From assembly GCA_030527825.1 (NCBI GenBank), contig JAUNAC010000002.1:382001-446000 (forward strand): a stretch of 64,000 nt of DNA. Reading direction: 5' to 3'. Position 1 is the stretch's first letter. Each line of letters begins with the position of its first letter. The notes beneath the pieces were generated by a model. That model did not search any database. It saw only the letters and a list, made by a program, of their open reading frames with translations, and was not told the origin of the DNA. Below, piece by piece: positions 4,981 through 25,421 of the stretch. Source of the stretch: Lautropia sp. (GTDB taxonomy: Bacteria > Pseudomonadota > Gammaproteobacteria > Burkholderiales > Burkholderiaceae_E). The position numbers and the translations under genes were made by a program.

Positions 4981-5772
4981 TCAGGGTTTGCCGGATGATT
5001 TGGCCGCTGGCGTGGCCGCTTTGCCGGAGGCCAACAGGGCATCCAGCGTCTTCAGGCGGCCTGCTCGGGTCGTATTAGATGAAATAGCCTGGGCCTGTCG
5101 CCAGCGCTGAGCGGCTAGCTGCAGATACAGATCCCCCAGATTCTGATAGGCAACTTCGTAGTCTGGCACCGCATGAATGGCCGCTTCCAGCGTATCGCGG
5201 GCAGCTTCCAGCCTTCCCTGGGCGGCCTGGGTGACGGCAAGGTTGTTATAAGGTTCGGGCAGCTCGGGGAAATCCTCAATCAGGGTACTGAATTCGTGCT
5301 CTGCATCCGTCAGGCGCCTGAGCTGAAAGAGGGCGAGACCTTTCAGAAAACGCAGACGGGCATCATCCGGCATTGCCCGCAGCGCTTCCTGTGCGGTGAG
5401 CAGGGCGCGTTCCGGATCATGCCGGTTCAGGGCCGCCTGTGCCTGACGACGTTTGTACTCCAGCCCGGTCTGGGCATCGGCGGCGGGTTGCTGGCCGTCC
5501 TGATCCAGCAGCTGACTGTCGCTCAACCCATCATGGTTTGACGTGCGATTTGCCGGGATGCCGCCCGTGGCGGCCCGTGATGCCTGCGCCGAGGCGGAAT
5601 CGCCCTGTGGGCCAGCGTCGCCGTGCAGATCATGATCGGCGGTAATGGTGCTGTCTAGGCGTTCGGAAGATGCACCGGCGCTGGCTGTCAGGGCAGGACT
5701 GCCCCACAGCAGCATGGCGGACAGCAAAAGCGCTGGACTCAGCGTGGACGGAAAACGGGGAGTGTCTGGCAT
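4981..5772 (-). CDS. Exported tetratricopeptide-repeat protein
   Basis: About 263 aa with an N-terminal signal peptide (MPDTPRFPSTLSPALLLSAM onward, likely cut near ALTASA). A Ser/Ala/Asp-rich linker follows, and then at least three TPR units between residues ~110 and 235 (for example HDPERALLTAQEALRAMPDD, LTDAEHEFSTLIEDFPELPE, GRLEAARDTLEAAIHAVPDY). TPRs mediate protein-protein contacts; the partner is unknown. It is the first gene of the run with the cyclophilin and lpxH, an association common in Burkholderiales, which suggests an envelope role, but nothing specific can be claimed. The start at 5772 is chosen because it begins the signal peptide. Confidence 0.8.
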   Translation of the reverse strand: MPDTPRFPSTLSPALLLSAMLLWGSPALTASAGASSERLDSTITADHDLHGDAGPQGDSASAQASRAATGGIPANRTSNHDGLSDSQLLDQDGQQPAADAQTGLEYKRRQAQAALNRHDPERALLTAQEALRAMPDDARLRFLKGLALFQLRRLTDAEHEFSTLIEDFPELPEPYNNLAVTQAAQGRLEAARDTLEAAIHAVPDYEVAYQNLGDLYLQLAAQRWRQAQAISSNTTRAGRLKTLDALLASGKAATPAAKSSGKP

Positions 5773-6062
5773 GAACAGAAAAACGGGTTGCCGGCAAAAG
5801 AGAGGGAGATGCCTGGGACACGCAGGGAGAAAACCGCCCAAATCCTGTCAGGCAGATATCTGCAGTCGGTTACACTCTGGCCTGGATGCGGCTCCATGGC
5901 TCCATTCTAGAGCCTGTGGCGCGGAAGATGTGCATTTGTCCTTCCGGGCCGACAGATCCCCAGGGCATGGGCCGGGCGTGCTGCGCCGCCGATGGCCGGA
6001 CCGGAGTGTTCGCGAACCGTGCCGTGGTCTTCTTTCATGTCGCCTTTTCCCGTCAATCTTCT

Positions 6063-20407: not shown

Positions 20408-22813
20408 TCAGGCCGGTGTGCAGATTTCTGGTGGTCGGGTTATGTGGTTGTGCATTCCACTGGCCTGATGAACAATGTCGCCCAGTTTTTGACAGAAGAT
20501 ATCCCGGCTGAAACGTTGCTCATAGAAATGTCTTGCTTCGGTGCAGAGCGCTTCGTAGCGGTGAGGTATGTCAGTCAGAATTCGAGCCAATGATTCCGGG
20601 TCTTTCCAGGCCAGTGACAGATTGGCATAGGATGAGTAGTCCGCCAGCATCGAACCGTGTTCGAACCCGCAGAAGGGCAAAACCGGATAGCCGCAGCCCT
20701 GTGCTTCAAGAGCCCCCCGGGCTCCTGATACGGGTGCGGATCCCACATAGACATGTGCATCCAGAGAATGAAGTGTTTGCCAGAGGGAGCTCACCTCACC
20801 ATGGCAAACGAAGCGCGCAGGGTCTATACCGAATGATTGCAGATGATCCCGGATTATTCTGATTGCCTGGTCATTCAATGGACCAATGTGATGGAATCGT
20901 CCTGCTATTGAAGTGAGAACTGAACGGACAACAGTCTGCAGCGCAACGGGCCCGGTGAGAATGAATTTTGACTCCCGACCCGCGGTGACGACCGAAAAGG
21001 GATATTTTTTGGAAATCGGTTGCACTTTTCTTGCGCCTTCATCCTTGACGTACAGTGGCAACCAGCTCACCTCGCGACGCAAGTGCTGACGACAGGTTTT
21101 CATCAGTGATTCGGTCAGATCGACATGATGAATACCTGCCAGGGTACATCCCAGGCTGGGGTTGTGATCGCCGTGGTGCACATATATTCGGGCACAGGCT
21201 GGCGCATAGAGTGTGCCAACGAACGGGATCGGATCTTGATGATGCTGCAGGTACCAGATCTGTTCCGGCCTGGCCGTCTGGCACAGCGTGTGCAGTTCCT
21301 TGGCTTTTTCCCAGAGACTGTCTCCCTTGAGGATGATGATGTCTGCCGCTGGAAAACGCTGATGGATCCAGGCCGTTTTTTCCAGGGAAGGTTGGTCGAA
21401 GTTTCCCCATGGATTGGTGATTACGAGCGTGACAGAGCTACGGTTGTTGGATAACTCTTCCAGTACACGTGTATGACCACCAATTTCATAAATTTCGCTG
21501 GCGATCAGCAGGGTTTTGCGAAGCTGGCGTCTTTCGCTGACCGCATCGCAGGATTTTGATGAAGTCGACTCGTCCCGCATGATTGCTGCCAGCGCAAGCA
21601 GCTTTCTGTCCAGATCAGGATAGTACAGTGCATGCTCCGCGATACCGGGTTGATAGAAATGATTGTTAACCCGCAGGAGTATCATGAGCATGGCCAGATC
21701 GAAACGTTTGGCGTCGATCAGCTGATCCACTTCGTGGCAGACATCCGGTAGCGTCTGAAAGATCGGTGCAGGATGCCCCGCATCCTGGGTAATGATGGCG
21801 CTACCCGATGAATCCTGCTCTCGAGGTGATAACGGTATGCCAGGAATGAGTGCTCGCGCAGAGACTTCTGGGCAAGAAGGAAGCGGCATACGTGGGCCGA
21901 TATAGTTATCATCATCGACTAGCGACAAAACGGATTGATGCGCCTGCCATACCCCGCTGGCAAAGGCCACCAGGTCCGCATATTCAGCGACCGGATCTAC
22001 GGTTTCGAAGAGGGTCAACTGTTGCTGTGCAACTTCGTAAAACGTCTGGCTGCCGAAGTCCTGGTGGAACAGACCTTCTAACTGGTCGTTGTTGAACCAC
22101 GTTACGCAGGTGTCGAAAGCCAGGCCGGCACTGGTATTGGCATGGCGTTCCGATAGGACAGGCGTGGCAAGTGACAGGCCAACAAAAGCTCTGACCTGTT
22201 CGAAGCGGGCTGTTTCGTAGAAGTGGAGGTTGAGCAGGGCTTTCGCCTGGAGGATGATGCTGTTGCGGGTATTGCCATAGACAGGAAAAGCCAGGGCACT
22301 CACCCGGCGGCCAGTTGATTCGATGCGCCGGATCAGCTTTTGGCGCCGCTCATTCATGCTGCCGATAAAAATCAGGTCCAGTGGTCGTTTGGCCAGCGGG
22401 AGTGCTTGACTTGGCGTGGGTTTGAGCCATTCAGCGTGGCCAAAGGAAATGATGGGGATATCGTCGGGCTGTGCCGAGTAGGCAGCTGGATTGTTGGCAT
22501 CGTAATCAATGACAACCGCCTGTTTTAAGAGACTCAGGTATTCGCCGGGCAGCGGCGCGCCGCGTTGACCAATCTGTTCCAGATTGACGATGATGCAGCT
22601 GTAGATCTGCAGCAGTTTGGTGTCGAATCCGAGATGGGCGCCAAACACGAAATTGATTGCGTCGTGGCGGAGCAGGTTGCGGGCCAGGCTGACGCGCTGA
22701 CCAAGACGTCTGAACTGCCAATAGAAGTATTGCGCTGGATCCAGCAGGGCGTCGGCGTGAATGTAGCCGGGAGGATTGATCAGACAAATGTGAAAGTCCG
22801 GCAGGTGGGCCAT
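20408..22813 (-). CDS. Large two-module glycosyltransferase-like protein
   Basis: 801 aa. The N-terminal part (residues ~1-330) resembles a GT-B-like module (CLINPPGYIHADALLDPAQY, then LDLIFIGSMNERRQKLIRRI). A linker follows, and then a second part (from ~430) with ASEIYEIGGHTRVLEELS and a C-terminal GARGALEAQGCGYPVLPFCG segment like the nucleotide-sugar site of GT4-type enzymes. It is the first gene of the minus-strand cluster; an upstream hairpin (22933-22970) separates it from the metal genes. Likely role: transfer of the cluster's sugar, perhaps to protein, by analogy with bacterial flagellin glycosylation loci; the acceptor is unknown. Confidence 0.7.
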   Translation of the reverse strand: MAHLPDFHICLINPPGYIHADALLDPAQYFYWQFRRLGQRVSLARNLLRHDAINFVFGAHLGFDTKLLQIYSCIIVNLEQIGQRGAPLPGEYLSLLKQAVVIDYDANNPAAYSAQPDDIPIISFGHAEWLKPTPSQALPLAKRPLDLIFIGSMNERRQKLIRRIESTGRRVSALAFPVYGNTRNSIILQAKALLNLHFYETARFEQVRAFVGLSLATPVLSERHANTSAGLAFDTCVTWFNNDQLEGLFHQDFGSQTFYEVAQQQLTLFETVDPVAEYADLVAFASGVWQAHQSVLSLVDDDNYIGPRMPLPSCPEVSARALIPGIPLSPREQDSSGSAIITQDAGHPAPIFQTLPDVCHEVDQLIDAKRFDLAMLMILLRVNNHFYQPGIAEHALYYPDLDRKLLALAAIMRDESTSSKSCDAVSERRQLRKTLLIASEIYEIGGHTRVLEELSNNRSSVTLVITNPWGNFDQPSLEKTAWIHQRFPAADIIILKGDSLWEKAKELHTLCQTARPEQIWYLQHHQDPIPFVGTLYAPACARIYVHHGDHNPSLGCTLAGIHHVDLTESLMKTCRQHLRREVSWLPLYVKDEGARKVQPISKKYPFSVVTAGRESKFILTGPVALQTVVRSVLTSIAGRFHHIGPLNDQAIRIIRDHLQSFGIDPARFVCHGEVSSLWQTLHSLDAHVYVGSAPVSGARGALEAQGCGYPVLPFCGFEHGSMLADYSSYANLSLAWKDPESLARILTDIPHRYEALCTEARHFYEQRFSRDIFCQKLGDIVHQASGMHNHITRPPEICTPA

Positions 22814-22932
22814 GCGCGTCGCCTTGTCAGGAACGGAAATGGCTAACTTTAGAGTGCCGGGTCAGGGATGGATGTGTGAATAAGGCGGGCTATGGCCGTC
22901 CAGTTCCGAAGCTCTGGCGAGGCGGGTAAAAA

Positions 22933-22970
22933 CAAAGCGCCCTGTCCAGTATGGAAAGCGGGGCGCCTTG
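22933..22970. terminator. Bidirectional hairpin between metal operon and glycan cluster
   Basis: GCGCCC (22937-22942) pairs with GGGCGC (22961-22966), extended by flanking CAA/TTG; the stem is followed on the minus strand by TTTGTTTTT and on the plus strand by TTGTTTT. It most plausibly ends the minus-strand smtB/His-rich transcript. Confidence 0.75.
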
Positions 22971-23013
22971 TTTTCGCTCAGGTTGTGCCGGTCATTCCCG
23001 GCACGGAATGGGA

Positions 23014-23373
23014 TCAGCCTTTGAGGACTTCGATAGGGCCGTGATTGTCGCAATGATCGCCATGGGGATGATGGAGATGACCATCAACCAGGTAATCAAT
23101 GTGATCGCCGTGCGGGACGGCCTCGTGACCGCAACCGGGGCCATGGACGTGGCCAGGTTCATGGCCATTGCAATGGTGCTCAGGCGTGCAACGGTCGGGA
23201 TTTGTGTCAGATACGGCGATTACATGTTCGTCCACGTGGTTTTCATGTGGATGATGAAGATGACCATCGTGCAGATAGTCGATATGCCCTTCGTGACGGA
23301 TGGCGGTATGGCCGCAGTTGGATCCATGAACATGGTCATGATTGGCGTGGTGAGGGAGGTTGCATGTGCTCAT
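23014..23373 (-). CDS. Histidine-rich metal-binding protein with two tandem repeats
   Basis: 119 aa with about 29 histidines and 6 cysteines. Two ~40-residue repeats share HVHGxxCGHxA, then HxxHIDYLxDGHLHHPH and a His/Asp-rich end (DEH or DNH). No signal peptide is visible, so it is probably cytoplasmic. It begins 10 bp after the stop of the ArsR/SmtB regulator, in an operon. The composition and its regulator suggest Zn (or Ni/Co) buffering or delivery; similar small proteins occur beside SmtB-type regulators, but I know of no experimentally defined function. Confidence 0.8.
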   Translation of the reverse strand: MSTCNLPHHANHDHVHGSNCGHTAIRHEGHIDYLHDGHLHHPHENHVDEHVIAVSDTNPDRCTPEHHCNGHEPGHVHGPGCGHEAVPHGDHIDYLVDGHLHHPHGDHCDNHGPIEVLKG

Positions 23374-23383
23374 GGCATTTTCC

Positions 23384-23788
23384 TTATGGAGAGGGGAGTG
23401 GGGCTAAGTGCGGTTGTGACTCGCTGGCATGTTGAAGAACGTTCAGAAGTAACGTTCTGACGTGCTCGTCTGACAGTGAGTAATAGATATGCTTCGCTTG
23501 GCGTCGTCGGGTGACTAGACGAGCGGCGTGTAACTGCTGCAGACGGGCCGATATGCTGCTCAACTTCGCGTTTTCCAAGTGCACTAGTTCGGAGACGCAC
23601 ACTTCACGCTGCGCTAGCCATAGCAGTAAGCGCAGGCGAGAAGGATCACTCATGGCCTGACACATTTGAGCCGCAGCGTCCAGTTGGGCAGTATTGAAGC
23701 CAATTGGGTCTAACCGGATTTCCTGATGGGCATCATGATCACAACCAGTTATTTCTACAGAATGGGAAGGTAGCTGAGTGTGATTCAT
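23384..23788 (-). CDS. ArsR/SmtB-family metalloregulator, zinc (alpha-5) type
   Basis: Winged-helix repressor, 134 aa from the ATG at 23788. The ArsR core AMSDPSRLRLLLWLA and the recognition-helix region KLSSISARLQQLHAARLV are clear. Near the C-terminus Asp107, His109, His120 and Glu123 fall in the spacing D-x-H-x10-H-x2-E, exactly the alpha-5 zinc site of SmtB/CzrA. The arsenic CxC motif is lacking (REVCVSEL). An N-terminal CDHDAH could add ligands. An alternative TTG start at 23821 would overlap a palindrome, so the later start is preferred. It probably represses its own operon with the His-rich gene until zinc is in excess. Confidence 0.88.
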   Translation of the reverse strand: MNHTQLPSHSVEITGCDHDAHQEIRLDPIGFNTAQLDAAAQMCQAMSDPSRLRLLLWLAQREVCVSELVHLENAKLSSISARLQQLHAARLVTRRRQAKHIYYSLSDEHVRTLLLNVLQHASESQPHLAPLPSP

Positions 23789-23818
23789 GCAGGTTGCGGA
23801 CGGATTCAAACAAATCTT

Positions 23819-23832
23819 CAATCCATGGATTG
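23819..23832. promoter_or_regulatory. Perfect 14-bp palindrome, candidate SmtB operator
   Basis: CAATCCATGGATTG is a perfect palindrome 30 bp upstream of the regulator start. A second imperfect one, GGAATGAATTCTATTCC, lies at 23835-23851. Autoregulation is normal for ArsR/SmtB proteins, but neither matches the classic SmtB 12-2-12 operator well. Confidence 0.35.
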
Positions 23833-23968
23833 ATGGAATGAATTCTATTCCCTGCGTAATTTCCTGTCAACCCGGTTTGAAATAGAGAAAAGGCACATGC
23901 CGGACATCTTCGGTATACGTGACAGATGTCTGCTCAACGCCCGCTCAAAATTATAGGTGGTAGTCTGA

Positions 23969-24064: not shown

Positions 24065-24392
24065 ATTGATATTTTATATCCACGATTTTTATGTCTGGCC
24101 AGATATTATGCTGAATATGCTTTCCGTTATTTATGTTGTACGGGGAAACCCTTCTTTCAATTTTCTTTGAAAAGATAAAGACTTTTATCACGCGGGTGTT
24201 CTATTCATTAATTAATTTCATGAATACGCTCGCTATATGTCTCTTGCTTTTTTTTCAGTTGTCGATCAGACAGGGGGAAGGTGTTTCGGCGATTCGTGTT
24301 CATGCCGATTGACAATAAACCCGTGCCAGAATTGTTTGAATTCTTTGATCGGATGTCTGATGAGCATTGATTTACAATATAAGGAGTATTCA
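24065..24392. other. AT-rich region upstream of adhP
   Basis: About 330 bp, well below the surrounding GC, with homopolymer A/T runs and no supported gene. An inverted repeat ATTCAT(24203-24208)/ATGAAT(24220-24225) could be a regulator site. It presumably carries the adhP promoter; I could not place -35/-10 or sigma-54 elements with correct spacing. Confidence 0.5.
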
Positions 24393-25421
24393 ATGAACAA
24401 AAAAATGAAAGCGGCTATGGTTTATGAATTTGGCAAGCCTCTAGTCATTGAAGATGTTGAAGTCCCTATACCTAATGATGATCAGATTCTAGTTAAGATT
24501 GAAGCATCTGGAGTTTGTCACACTGATCTTCACGCAGCAGAAGGTGATTGGCCGGTGAAGCCGAATCTACCTTTTATTCCTGGTCATGAAGGGGTCGGCT
24601 TTGTCGCTGGTGTTGGCAAGAACGTCAAGCACGTGAAAGAGGGGGATCGTGTAGGAATCCCGTGGCTTTATTCCGCTTGCGGATATTGTACCCACTGCCT
24701 TGGCGGATGGGAGACTCTGTGCGAACAGCAGAAAAATACTGGTTATTCGGTCAATGGTGGGTTTGCAGATTATGCACTTGCAGACCCGAATTATGTGGGC
24801 CACCTTCCGAAAAACGCGCTTTTTACGGACATCGCACCGGTTTTATGTGCAGGCGTGACAGTATATAAGGGTTTGAAAATGACCCATGCCAAGCCTGGCG
24901 ATTGGGTGGTAATCTCGGGCGTTGGTGGTTTGGGGCACATGGCTGTCCAATATGCCAAGGCAATGGGTTTCAATGTGGCCGCAGTGGATGTATCGCAGGA
25001 TAAATTGGCACTGGCTGAGCGCTTGGGCGCGACAGTGACTGTCAATGCGGCCCAAACAGATCCCGCGATTTATTTGCAGCAACAGATTGGCGGCGCTCAC
25101 GCTGTTCTGGTGACAGCAGTTTCACCCAAGGCTTTTGAGCAGGCGCTGGGTATGGTACGGCGTGGCGGAACTATTGCGCTCAATGGCCTGCCACCGGGCG
25201 AATTTCCGCTACCAATCTTTTCAATGGTGCTTAATGGCATTACAGTGAGAGGGTCAATTGTTGGTACCCGCCTGGATTTGCAGGAGTCGCTTGAGTATGC
25301 GGCTGAGGGCAAGGTGAAGGCGACGATTAAGACCGAGAGGCTTGAGGCCATTAATGATGTCTTCGCCCGTATGCACAAAGGTCAGATTGAAGGCCGTATT
25401 GTCATCGATATGGCCGCCTGA
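24393..25421 (+). CDS. adhP: Zinc-dependent alcohol dehydrogenase, AdhP type
   Basis: Medium-chain NAD-dependent alcohol dehydrogenase, 342 aa. The catalytic-zinc motif [12 protein letters not shown] is present with Cys in [15 protein letters not shown]; the structural-zinc cysteines lie in [17 protein letters not shown], and the NAD site is [15 protein letters not shown]. The AAGGAG ribosome-binding site 7 nt before the ATG fixes the start. Likely role: interconversion of ethanol and other primary alcohols with aldehydes. The 5' half has markedly lower GC than the neighbouring housekeeping genes, suggesting recent acquisition. It converges on the LOG gene 17 bp away. Confidence 0.95.

Follow-up and report, generated by a model that had tools for sequence, protein, structure and literature searches.

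Bacteria have few known proteins for storing zinc, and the distribution of metallothioneins is patchy. In the available text of PMC8790569, cyanobacterial metallothioneins stand under SmtB-type repressors and DxHx10Hx2E is the motif that marks alpha-5 SmtB sensors; in that of PMC9337993, Zur turns on a metallothionein of marine Synechococcus when zinc is high. As SmtB-type and Zur-controlled metallothioneins are both on record in these partial sources, a store of this kind may come under either sensor. Here we describe a two-gene unit in a 64,000-nucleotide stretch of Lautropia sp. DNA (the window), in which an SmtB-type repressor is paired with a histidine-rich protein. We consider it rather probable that the unit is a self-regulated zinc-response operon, derepressed by zinc, whose product is a soluble zinc store or buffer.

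The repressor reading frame is followed, after a gap of 10 bases, by that of the histidine-rich protein, both on the minus strand. This is the arrangement that the initial annotation had reported (a regulator, then a 119-residue reading frame ten bases on), and the unit is, as it also said, free of transporters. The unit and its surroundings comprise the following features.

23384..23821, minus strand: SmtB/ArsR-type repressor gene (matches to NF033788 and to SmtB, 1r1t)
23420..23470, minus strand: alpha-5 metal site D-x-H-x10-H-x2-E, DEHVRTLLLNVLQHASE, found by motif search in the repressor
23014..23373, minus strand: gene for the histidine-rich protein, 119 residues (reading frame, alignment and model)
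22929..22974, minus strand: long hairpin whose 3' arm is rich in U, probably the terminator that closes the unit
24387..25421, plus strand: AdhP-type alcohol dehydrogenase, a divergent neighbour given for context only (family match and comparison among Lautropia)

The hairpin at 22929-22974 probably ends the unit: the minus strand of 22915-23016, which contains a second hairpin as well, folds at -43.4 kcal/mol (z -5.2). A loop-limited terminator scan did not pick up the 22929-22974 hairpin. The next minus-strand reading frame, 20408-22813, begins 200 bases past the histidine-rich protein gene and has no Pfam or NCBIfam match at E 0.1. On the other side, the AdhP-type gene adjoins the unit in six of the seven Lautropia loci compared. 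AdhP-type alcohol dehydrogenases use zinc, and for this reason the enzyme at 24387-25421 is a possible client. The cation-efflux match of this genome lies on a different contig from the unit.

The 119 residues of the histidine-rich protein include 29 histidines, exactly the approximate count given earlier, with 6 cysteines and 18 aspartates and glutamates. Two clearly alike repeats organize the sequence, as had been claimed, but they fall short of the near-identity over about 40 residues that was claimed with them: 21 of 33 residues and 62 of 99 bases are identical, and a DNA repeat finder listed no direct repeat at the gene.

23218..23316, minus strand: repeat 1, residues 20-52, with model strands at 23-27, 30-35, 38-43 and 46-50
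23035..23133, minus strand: repeat 2, residues 81-113, with model strands at 84-88, 91-96, 99-104 and 107-113

Because the protein has no hydrophobic stretch, it is predicted to be soluble and probably cytosolic. Its sequence is under constraint across Lautropia, where five copies differ from the window at 50-59% of third codon positions and keep 96-103 of the 119 residues; dN/dS could be computed for one of these copies only (0.03) because silent sites are saturated in the others. The family alignment and this codon pattern rule out a chance low-complexity histidine run. Membership of the metallothioneins by sequence was excluded by Pfam and NCBIfam searches, which gave no metallothionein match, and the protein has only 6 cysteines in 119 residues.

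The alignment also supports a structural model. Invariant columns number 33 among 81 aligned sequences and 16 in a wider alignment of 93, and AlphaFold2 with the 81 rows, modelling the protein without metal, returned a mean pLDDT of 87.2 and a pTM of 0.80. The model consists of two four-stranded beta-meanders, with strands at matching places in both repeats; without the alignment confidence drops to a pLDDT of 35, yet six strands are placed much alike. Since the alignment-based model is confident, the protein looks folded rather than floppy. We found no relative of solved structure by sequence and no PDB match to the model (best Foldseek E 2.7; none of 231 re-aligned chains reaches Z 2). Among viral models the best match is a cation efflux protein of the giant virus Yasminevirus (E 9e-4, probability 0.99, 28% identity), a weak lead given its geometry (TM 0.34, rmsd 10.7). 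It hints at the module being present in zinc transporters too. Scanning viral contigs with the repeat alone turned up two loci, both in contigs already found. The Foldseek list further includes 2cs7 and 6csl from the pneumococcal histidine triad (Pht) proteins, whose domains are zinc-binding and likewise have His-Gly-Asp-His motifs in short beta structure. With Foldseek E of 7 to 8, a probability of 0.03 and no sequence match, we rejected this resemblance as proof of kinship, as neither sequence nor fold is similar enough.

The histidine-rich protein belongs to no Pfam or NCBIfam family, and 93 aligned members gave only stray weak matches (E 0.0099 or worse, with unrelated names). One scan of bacterial genomes confirmed at least 409 relatives among 591 candidate stretches; the best 80 of these were kept for comparison of loci, and the conservation figures are drawn mainly from them. 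Judged by record titles and plasmid taxonomy, and partly from metagenome bins, the family reaches seven phyla. Titles name groups of Pseudomonadota, Planctomycetota, Myxococcota, Acidobacteria, Verrucomicrobiia and Actinobacteria, many as metagenome bins, and the carriers include the isolates Thalassoglobus neptunius and Silvibacterium bohemicum, which we take to be a planctomycete and an acidobacterium. Bradyrhizobium and Paraburkholderia are carriers too, and in Paraburkholderia sprentiae the copy adjoins znuABC. Thirteen plasmid records extend the family to Bacillota and to isolate Actinomycetota. Closer to home the family is sparse: counting the genome of the window each time, it occurs in 7 of 61 related genomes, all from Lautropia (7 of 9 there), in 9 of 274 genomes of the class and in 7 of 398 of the phylum. 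This sparse yet wide distribution suggests horizontal spread.

Some plasmids of Rhodococcus and Citricoccus encode relatives of about 50 residues with a single repeat, 59-69% identical to repeat 2 (L142:3447-3596, L143:3444-3599 and L144:3441-3599, all Actinomycetota plasmids). Entries from these genera are annotated as 'zinc transporter permease'; they share one copy of the module with the histidine-rich protein and, unlike what their name says, show by eye no membrane segment, only the single repeat. The annotation looks like a misnomer. In the open-licence literature, with subscription journals largely outside its scope, we found no report recognisably concerned with the family, which may be described elsewhere, and the available text of work on zinc limitation in Paracoccus (PMC5387054) and of a Cupriavidus proteome (PMC11647595) held nothing recognisable on it. 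The control logic of the unit is already known, and the effector is apparently from an undescribed family.

To compare contexts we reduced 99 loci to 94 distinct ones, the window included, leaving out L002, L005 and L006 (the same places as L017, L018 and L020) and the partial viral matches L098 and L099. An SmtB-type gene lies directly upstream on the same strand in 41 of the 94, among them the window; no adjacent SmtB gene was found at the other 53, one of which (L013) has only 109 bases of upstream sequence. At L046 (4617 to 5333) and L081 (4602-5333) the regulator and the histidine-rich protein share a single stop-free frame; these are possible sensor-effector fusions, with a second start at the histidine-rich protein also possible.

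Within Lautropia the locus is largely syntenic, running adhP, SmtB where present, the histidine-rich protein gene and, in some genomes, a large reading frame of the 20408-22813 type. Three more loci (L137-L139) have the regulator, as the window does. Three others (L135, L136 and L020) keep the histidine-rich protein gene with no SmtB at the locus, and no relative of the window regulator was found anywhere in these genomes at E 1e-5, one of them being 80% complete. The regulator-less genomes are evidence that the sensor is not strictly required, and Lautropia loci with and without it offer a natural experiment on its role. Upstream of the histidine-rich protein gene of regulator-less L135, at 5571-5894, a 45-base repeat built around CGTTACTTTATATC occurs in five copies (60-100% alike) that are Zur-like in part.

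The pairing also bears on the idea that the histidine-rich protein is a feedback partner, which takes zinc away from SmtB or delivers zinc there and so sets the threshold of the sensor without forming a bulk store. The two single-frame loci and the 41 of 94 pairings fit such intimacy. We nevertheless consider it very improbable: 53 of the 94 loci lack a detected adjacent SmtB gene, and the one-repeat proteins of Actinomycetota plasmids have no SmtB among their listed neighbours, in a gene table that is incomplete.

The regulator scores 69.2 bits against NF033788 (cut-off 55) and 24.6 bits against HTH_5 (cut-off 22), which places it in the ArsR/SmtB winged-helix family, and its closest solved structure by sequence is SmtB itself (1r1t, E 1.3e-15). 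The initial annotation had read an exact D-x-H-x10-H-x2-E site in alpha-5 and no CxC, and both hold: the site is DEHVRTLLLNVLQHASE, and the missing CxC rules out an arsenic-type ArsR. Of 981 reading frames called around the 99 loci, 33 carry the alpha-5 motif, and all 33 are labelled ArsR. The strict motif is kept in 38 of the 41 adjacent regulators, the exceptions being L041, a fragment, L048, which ends in D, and L081, which lacks the last acid. The window regulator also carries CDHDAH and EVCVSEL, which may be parts of a second, alpha3N-like site (N-terminal Cys/His with an alpha-3 Cys). By a crude version of this pattern 20 of 40 regulators have both parts, 13 neither, and 5 and 2 only one (Fisher P 6e-5), with the alpha-3 position unlocated in 5 of the 40 and scored as lacking the cysteine, with a few calls that look wrong by eye, and with sequences that share ancestry. 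We predict from the family match and the alpha-5 motif that the regulator is an alpha-5 zinc-type SmtB sensor.

Several divalent metals can occupy alpha-5 sites and histidine clusters, so that cobalt, nickel or cadmium could be both signal and cargo and the unit a store or detoxifier for that metal. A protein of the HupE/UreJ family, which includes nickel permeases, lies near the partner loci L021 and L022. At the same two loci, however, there are ZnuA, ZnuC and Fur labels as well; cobW and FUR are commoner than HupE_UreJ among the neighbour families listed; and every ligand of the window motif matches the SmtB signature. We regard another metal as quite unlikely and take zinc as the probable one.

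A promoter and an operator are predicted ahead of the repressor gene.

23865..23870, minus strand: predicted -35 box TTGACA (promoter scan)
23842..23847, minus strand: predicted -10 box TAGAAT (promoter scan)
23821..23838, minus strand: predicted operator TTCCATCAATCCATGGAT (de novo motif and leave-one-out scoring)

The two boxes are separated by a 17-base spacer and match 11 of 12 consensus positions, and the operator follows directly after the -10 box. The promoter call rests on position and match quality, because the scan gave two promoter-like sites where shuffled sequence would yield 2.3. The listed TTG start of the regulator (23821) falls inside the predicted operator, with an ATG at 23788 as an alternative start.

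De novo search over 38 promoters (L041, L043 and L088 left out) produced an 18-bp motif whose consensus we render as TTCYATnGATCnATRGAA, with information of 8.9-11.9 in eight runs versus 7.1-7.8 in sets shuffled by simple letter order. The palindrome at 23819-23832 that had been proposed earlier overlaps the operator conserved in relatives but is shifted from it, and motif and scoring together reject that exact palindrome as the operator. In leave-one-out scoring of all 41 SmtB loci against shuffles of two-base blocks, 26 exceed the 99th shuffle percentile, the window included, where 0.4 are expected; the 26 are not independent events, because almost every site had been seen by the starting matrix and some of the loci are closely related. 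The other 15 fall below threshold. The window operator scores 22.7 (22.3 with the site excluded from the matrix) versus 9.3 for the next-best site in the window. It is the sole exact match in its own 2.8-Mb genome, where two further sites lie within the limit at 3 mismatches each, and because of this single exact site the repressor seems to serve its own unit alone.

Loci without an adjacent SmtB gene seldom carry the operator: 4 of the 53 have one above threshold upstream, strong at L009 (22.9) and L092 (20.5) and weaker at two more. With 53 of 94 loci lacking an adjacent SmtB and so few of these bearing the operator, other control is common. At L009 and L092 the solo operators precede the histidine-rich protein gene by about 237 and 155 bases; perhaps a regulator acts on them from elsewhere or has been lost. 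ArsR relatives in the L092 genome are only 31-38% identical to the window regulator.

We propose that at low zinc an SmtB-type dimer would sit on the 18-bp operator past the -10 box and block transcription. When cytosolic zinc rises, the alpha-5 site would fill and the repressor would be released, so that both proteins are made. The histidine-rich protein would then hold several zinc ions in its two histidine-lined beta-meanders, which would bring down the level of free zinc and leave a reserve to draw on.

The genes around other family members point beyond excess zinc. Neighbours were scanned at SmtB loci (136 of 144) and at the others (137 of 180), leaving out long, plasmid and viral neighbours, and the neighbour lists cover loci other than the Lautropia whole-genome loci L001, L003, L004 and L007. 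Labels of znuABC, Fur, COG0523 or DUF1826 type occur at 11 of 41 SmtB loci and 12 of 53 others. These labels come from single-query phmmer searches of reading frames called simply by greatest length, Fur labels need not denote Zur, and at least one label is wrong, the ZnuC label at L024 belonging to another ABC protein. Pfam confirmed ZnuA at L030, cobW at L068 and L092, DUF1826 at L058, FUR at L072 and an ABC-3 permease at a single locus, and at L009, on a Paraburkholderia plasmid, an annotated zinc ABC operon and a GTPase stand beside the histidine-rich protein gene. Two of the 137 neighbours scanned at SmtB-less loci are cation-efflux proteins, and the families listed with at least two members around SmtB loci do not include such proteins; 25 of 139 and 25 of 156 families were listed for the two sets of loci.

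Of 35 genomes, 5 have a COG0523-type gene in the locus, with 0.38 expected from a density of 222 matches in about 205 Mb, an expectation that is conservative because the count may include UreG/HypB-type proteins. The Poisson P of 5e-5 is indicative only, because the 35 genomes (of 80 genome-collection loci, mostly named isolates) were hand-picked after the neighbour map had been seen. Zur-like boxes, from a matrix built on four Caulobacter sites only, exceed the shuffle threshold at 8 of 53 SmtB-less and 8 of 41 SmtB loci, and at some of these divergent uptake genes are close by; the window promoter has none above threshold. In two different organisms, a WD40-repeat protein lies beside a COG0523 GTPase near the histidine-rich protein gene (L010:2568-4699 and L080:1988-4437).

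Uptake-type labels on both sets of loci, the L009 operon with its GTPase, the Pfam-confirmed ZnuA, cobW, DUF1826 and FUR neighbours and the Zur-like boxes of SmtB-less loci are what one would expect if the histidine-rich protein were a zinc allocation or handover chaperone for uptake systems and a COG0523 GTPase, limited by SmtB in some species and by Zur or another regulator elsewhere. This handover role is the main rival to a zinc store, and we give it a modest minority chance. The Zur-like boxes may belong to divergent uptake genes, no scanned reading frame near the unit in the window falls in the zinc-uptake, COG0523, DUF1826 or Fur families, and an SmtB partner of its own implies that the protein is induced at high rather than low zinc.

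The zinc store remains our preferred reading, in a form that differs from the one first suggested, a histidine repeat chelator buffering zinc under a zinc sensor. The closeness of the regulator to SmtB, the alpha-5 motif in 38 of 41 partners, the operator shared by 26 of 41 and the lack of a transporter support that suggestion in part. The effector is no ad hoc repeat chelator, being a conserved and apparently folded family, and buffering of excess zinc may not be its whole role, given that an adjacent SmtB is missing at 53 of 94 loci and that zinc-uptake genes flank some relatives; such neighbours suggest that the protein also has a role when zinc is low. More tentatively, and with slightly less than even confidence, we propose an undescribed, horizontally spread zinc-storage family, a folded histidine counterpart of metallothioneins made of one or two meander modules of about 33 residues, that serves both excess and recovery under exchangeable control: an adjacent SmtB, an in-frame SmtB, a solo SmtB-type operator or a Zur context. 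If this is true, a conserved store built on histidine and paired with a zinc sensor, scattered over phyla and outside the family models searched, would be a new bacterial way to bank zinc. The operator motif, the two possible sensor-effector fusions and the Lautropia genomes with and without the sensor provide a test set.

Several described systems share parts of this design. ZiaR/ZiaA, CzrA/CzrB and other SmtB-type efflux units use the same type of sensor, whereas the window unit has no exporter. Some relatives of the histidine-rich protein sit among genes of the kind found in the Zur-linked COG0523 and DUF1826 clusters of PMC2770081; in the available text of that work, however, the histidine stretches lie inside COG0523 and UreG proteins and not in a separate histidine-rich protein. 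The published operator is a 12-2-12 repeat; the motif TTCYATnGATCnATRGAA was derived from the loci compared here. The closest likenesses, as far as the available text of PMC8790569 goes, are SmtB/SmtA of Synechococcus, AzuR/NmtA and BxmR/BmtA, each of which, like the window unit, joins an SmtB-type repressor to a small metal-binding protein. DxHx10Hx2E is common to SmtB, AzuR and the window regulator, and BxmR/BmtA forms an operon as the window genes do, whereas smtB and smtA form a divergon, azuR is remote from nmtA and the window genes stand in line. The effectors differ most: those of the cyanobacteria are, in the same partial source, cysteine-rich metallothioneins, whereas that of the window is histidine-rich and predicted to be a folded beta protein.
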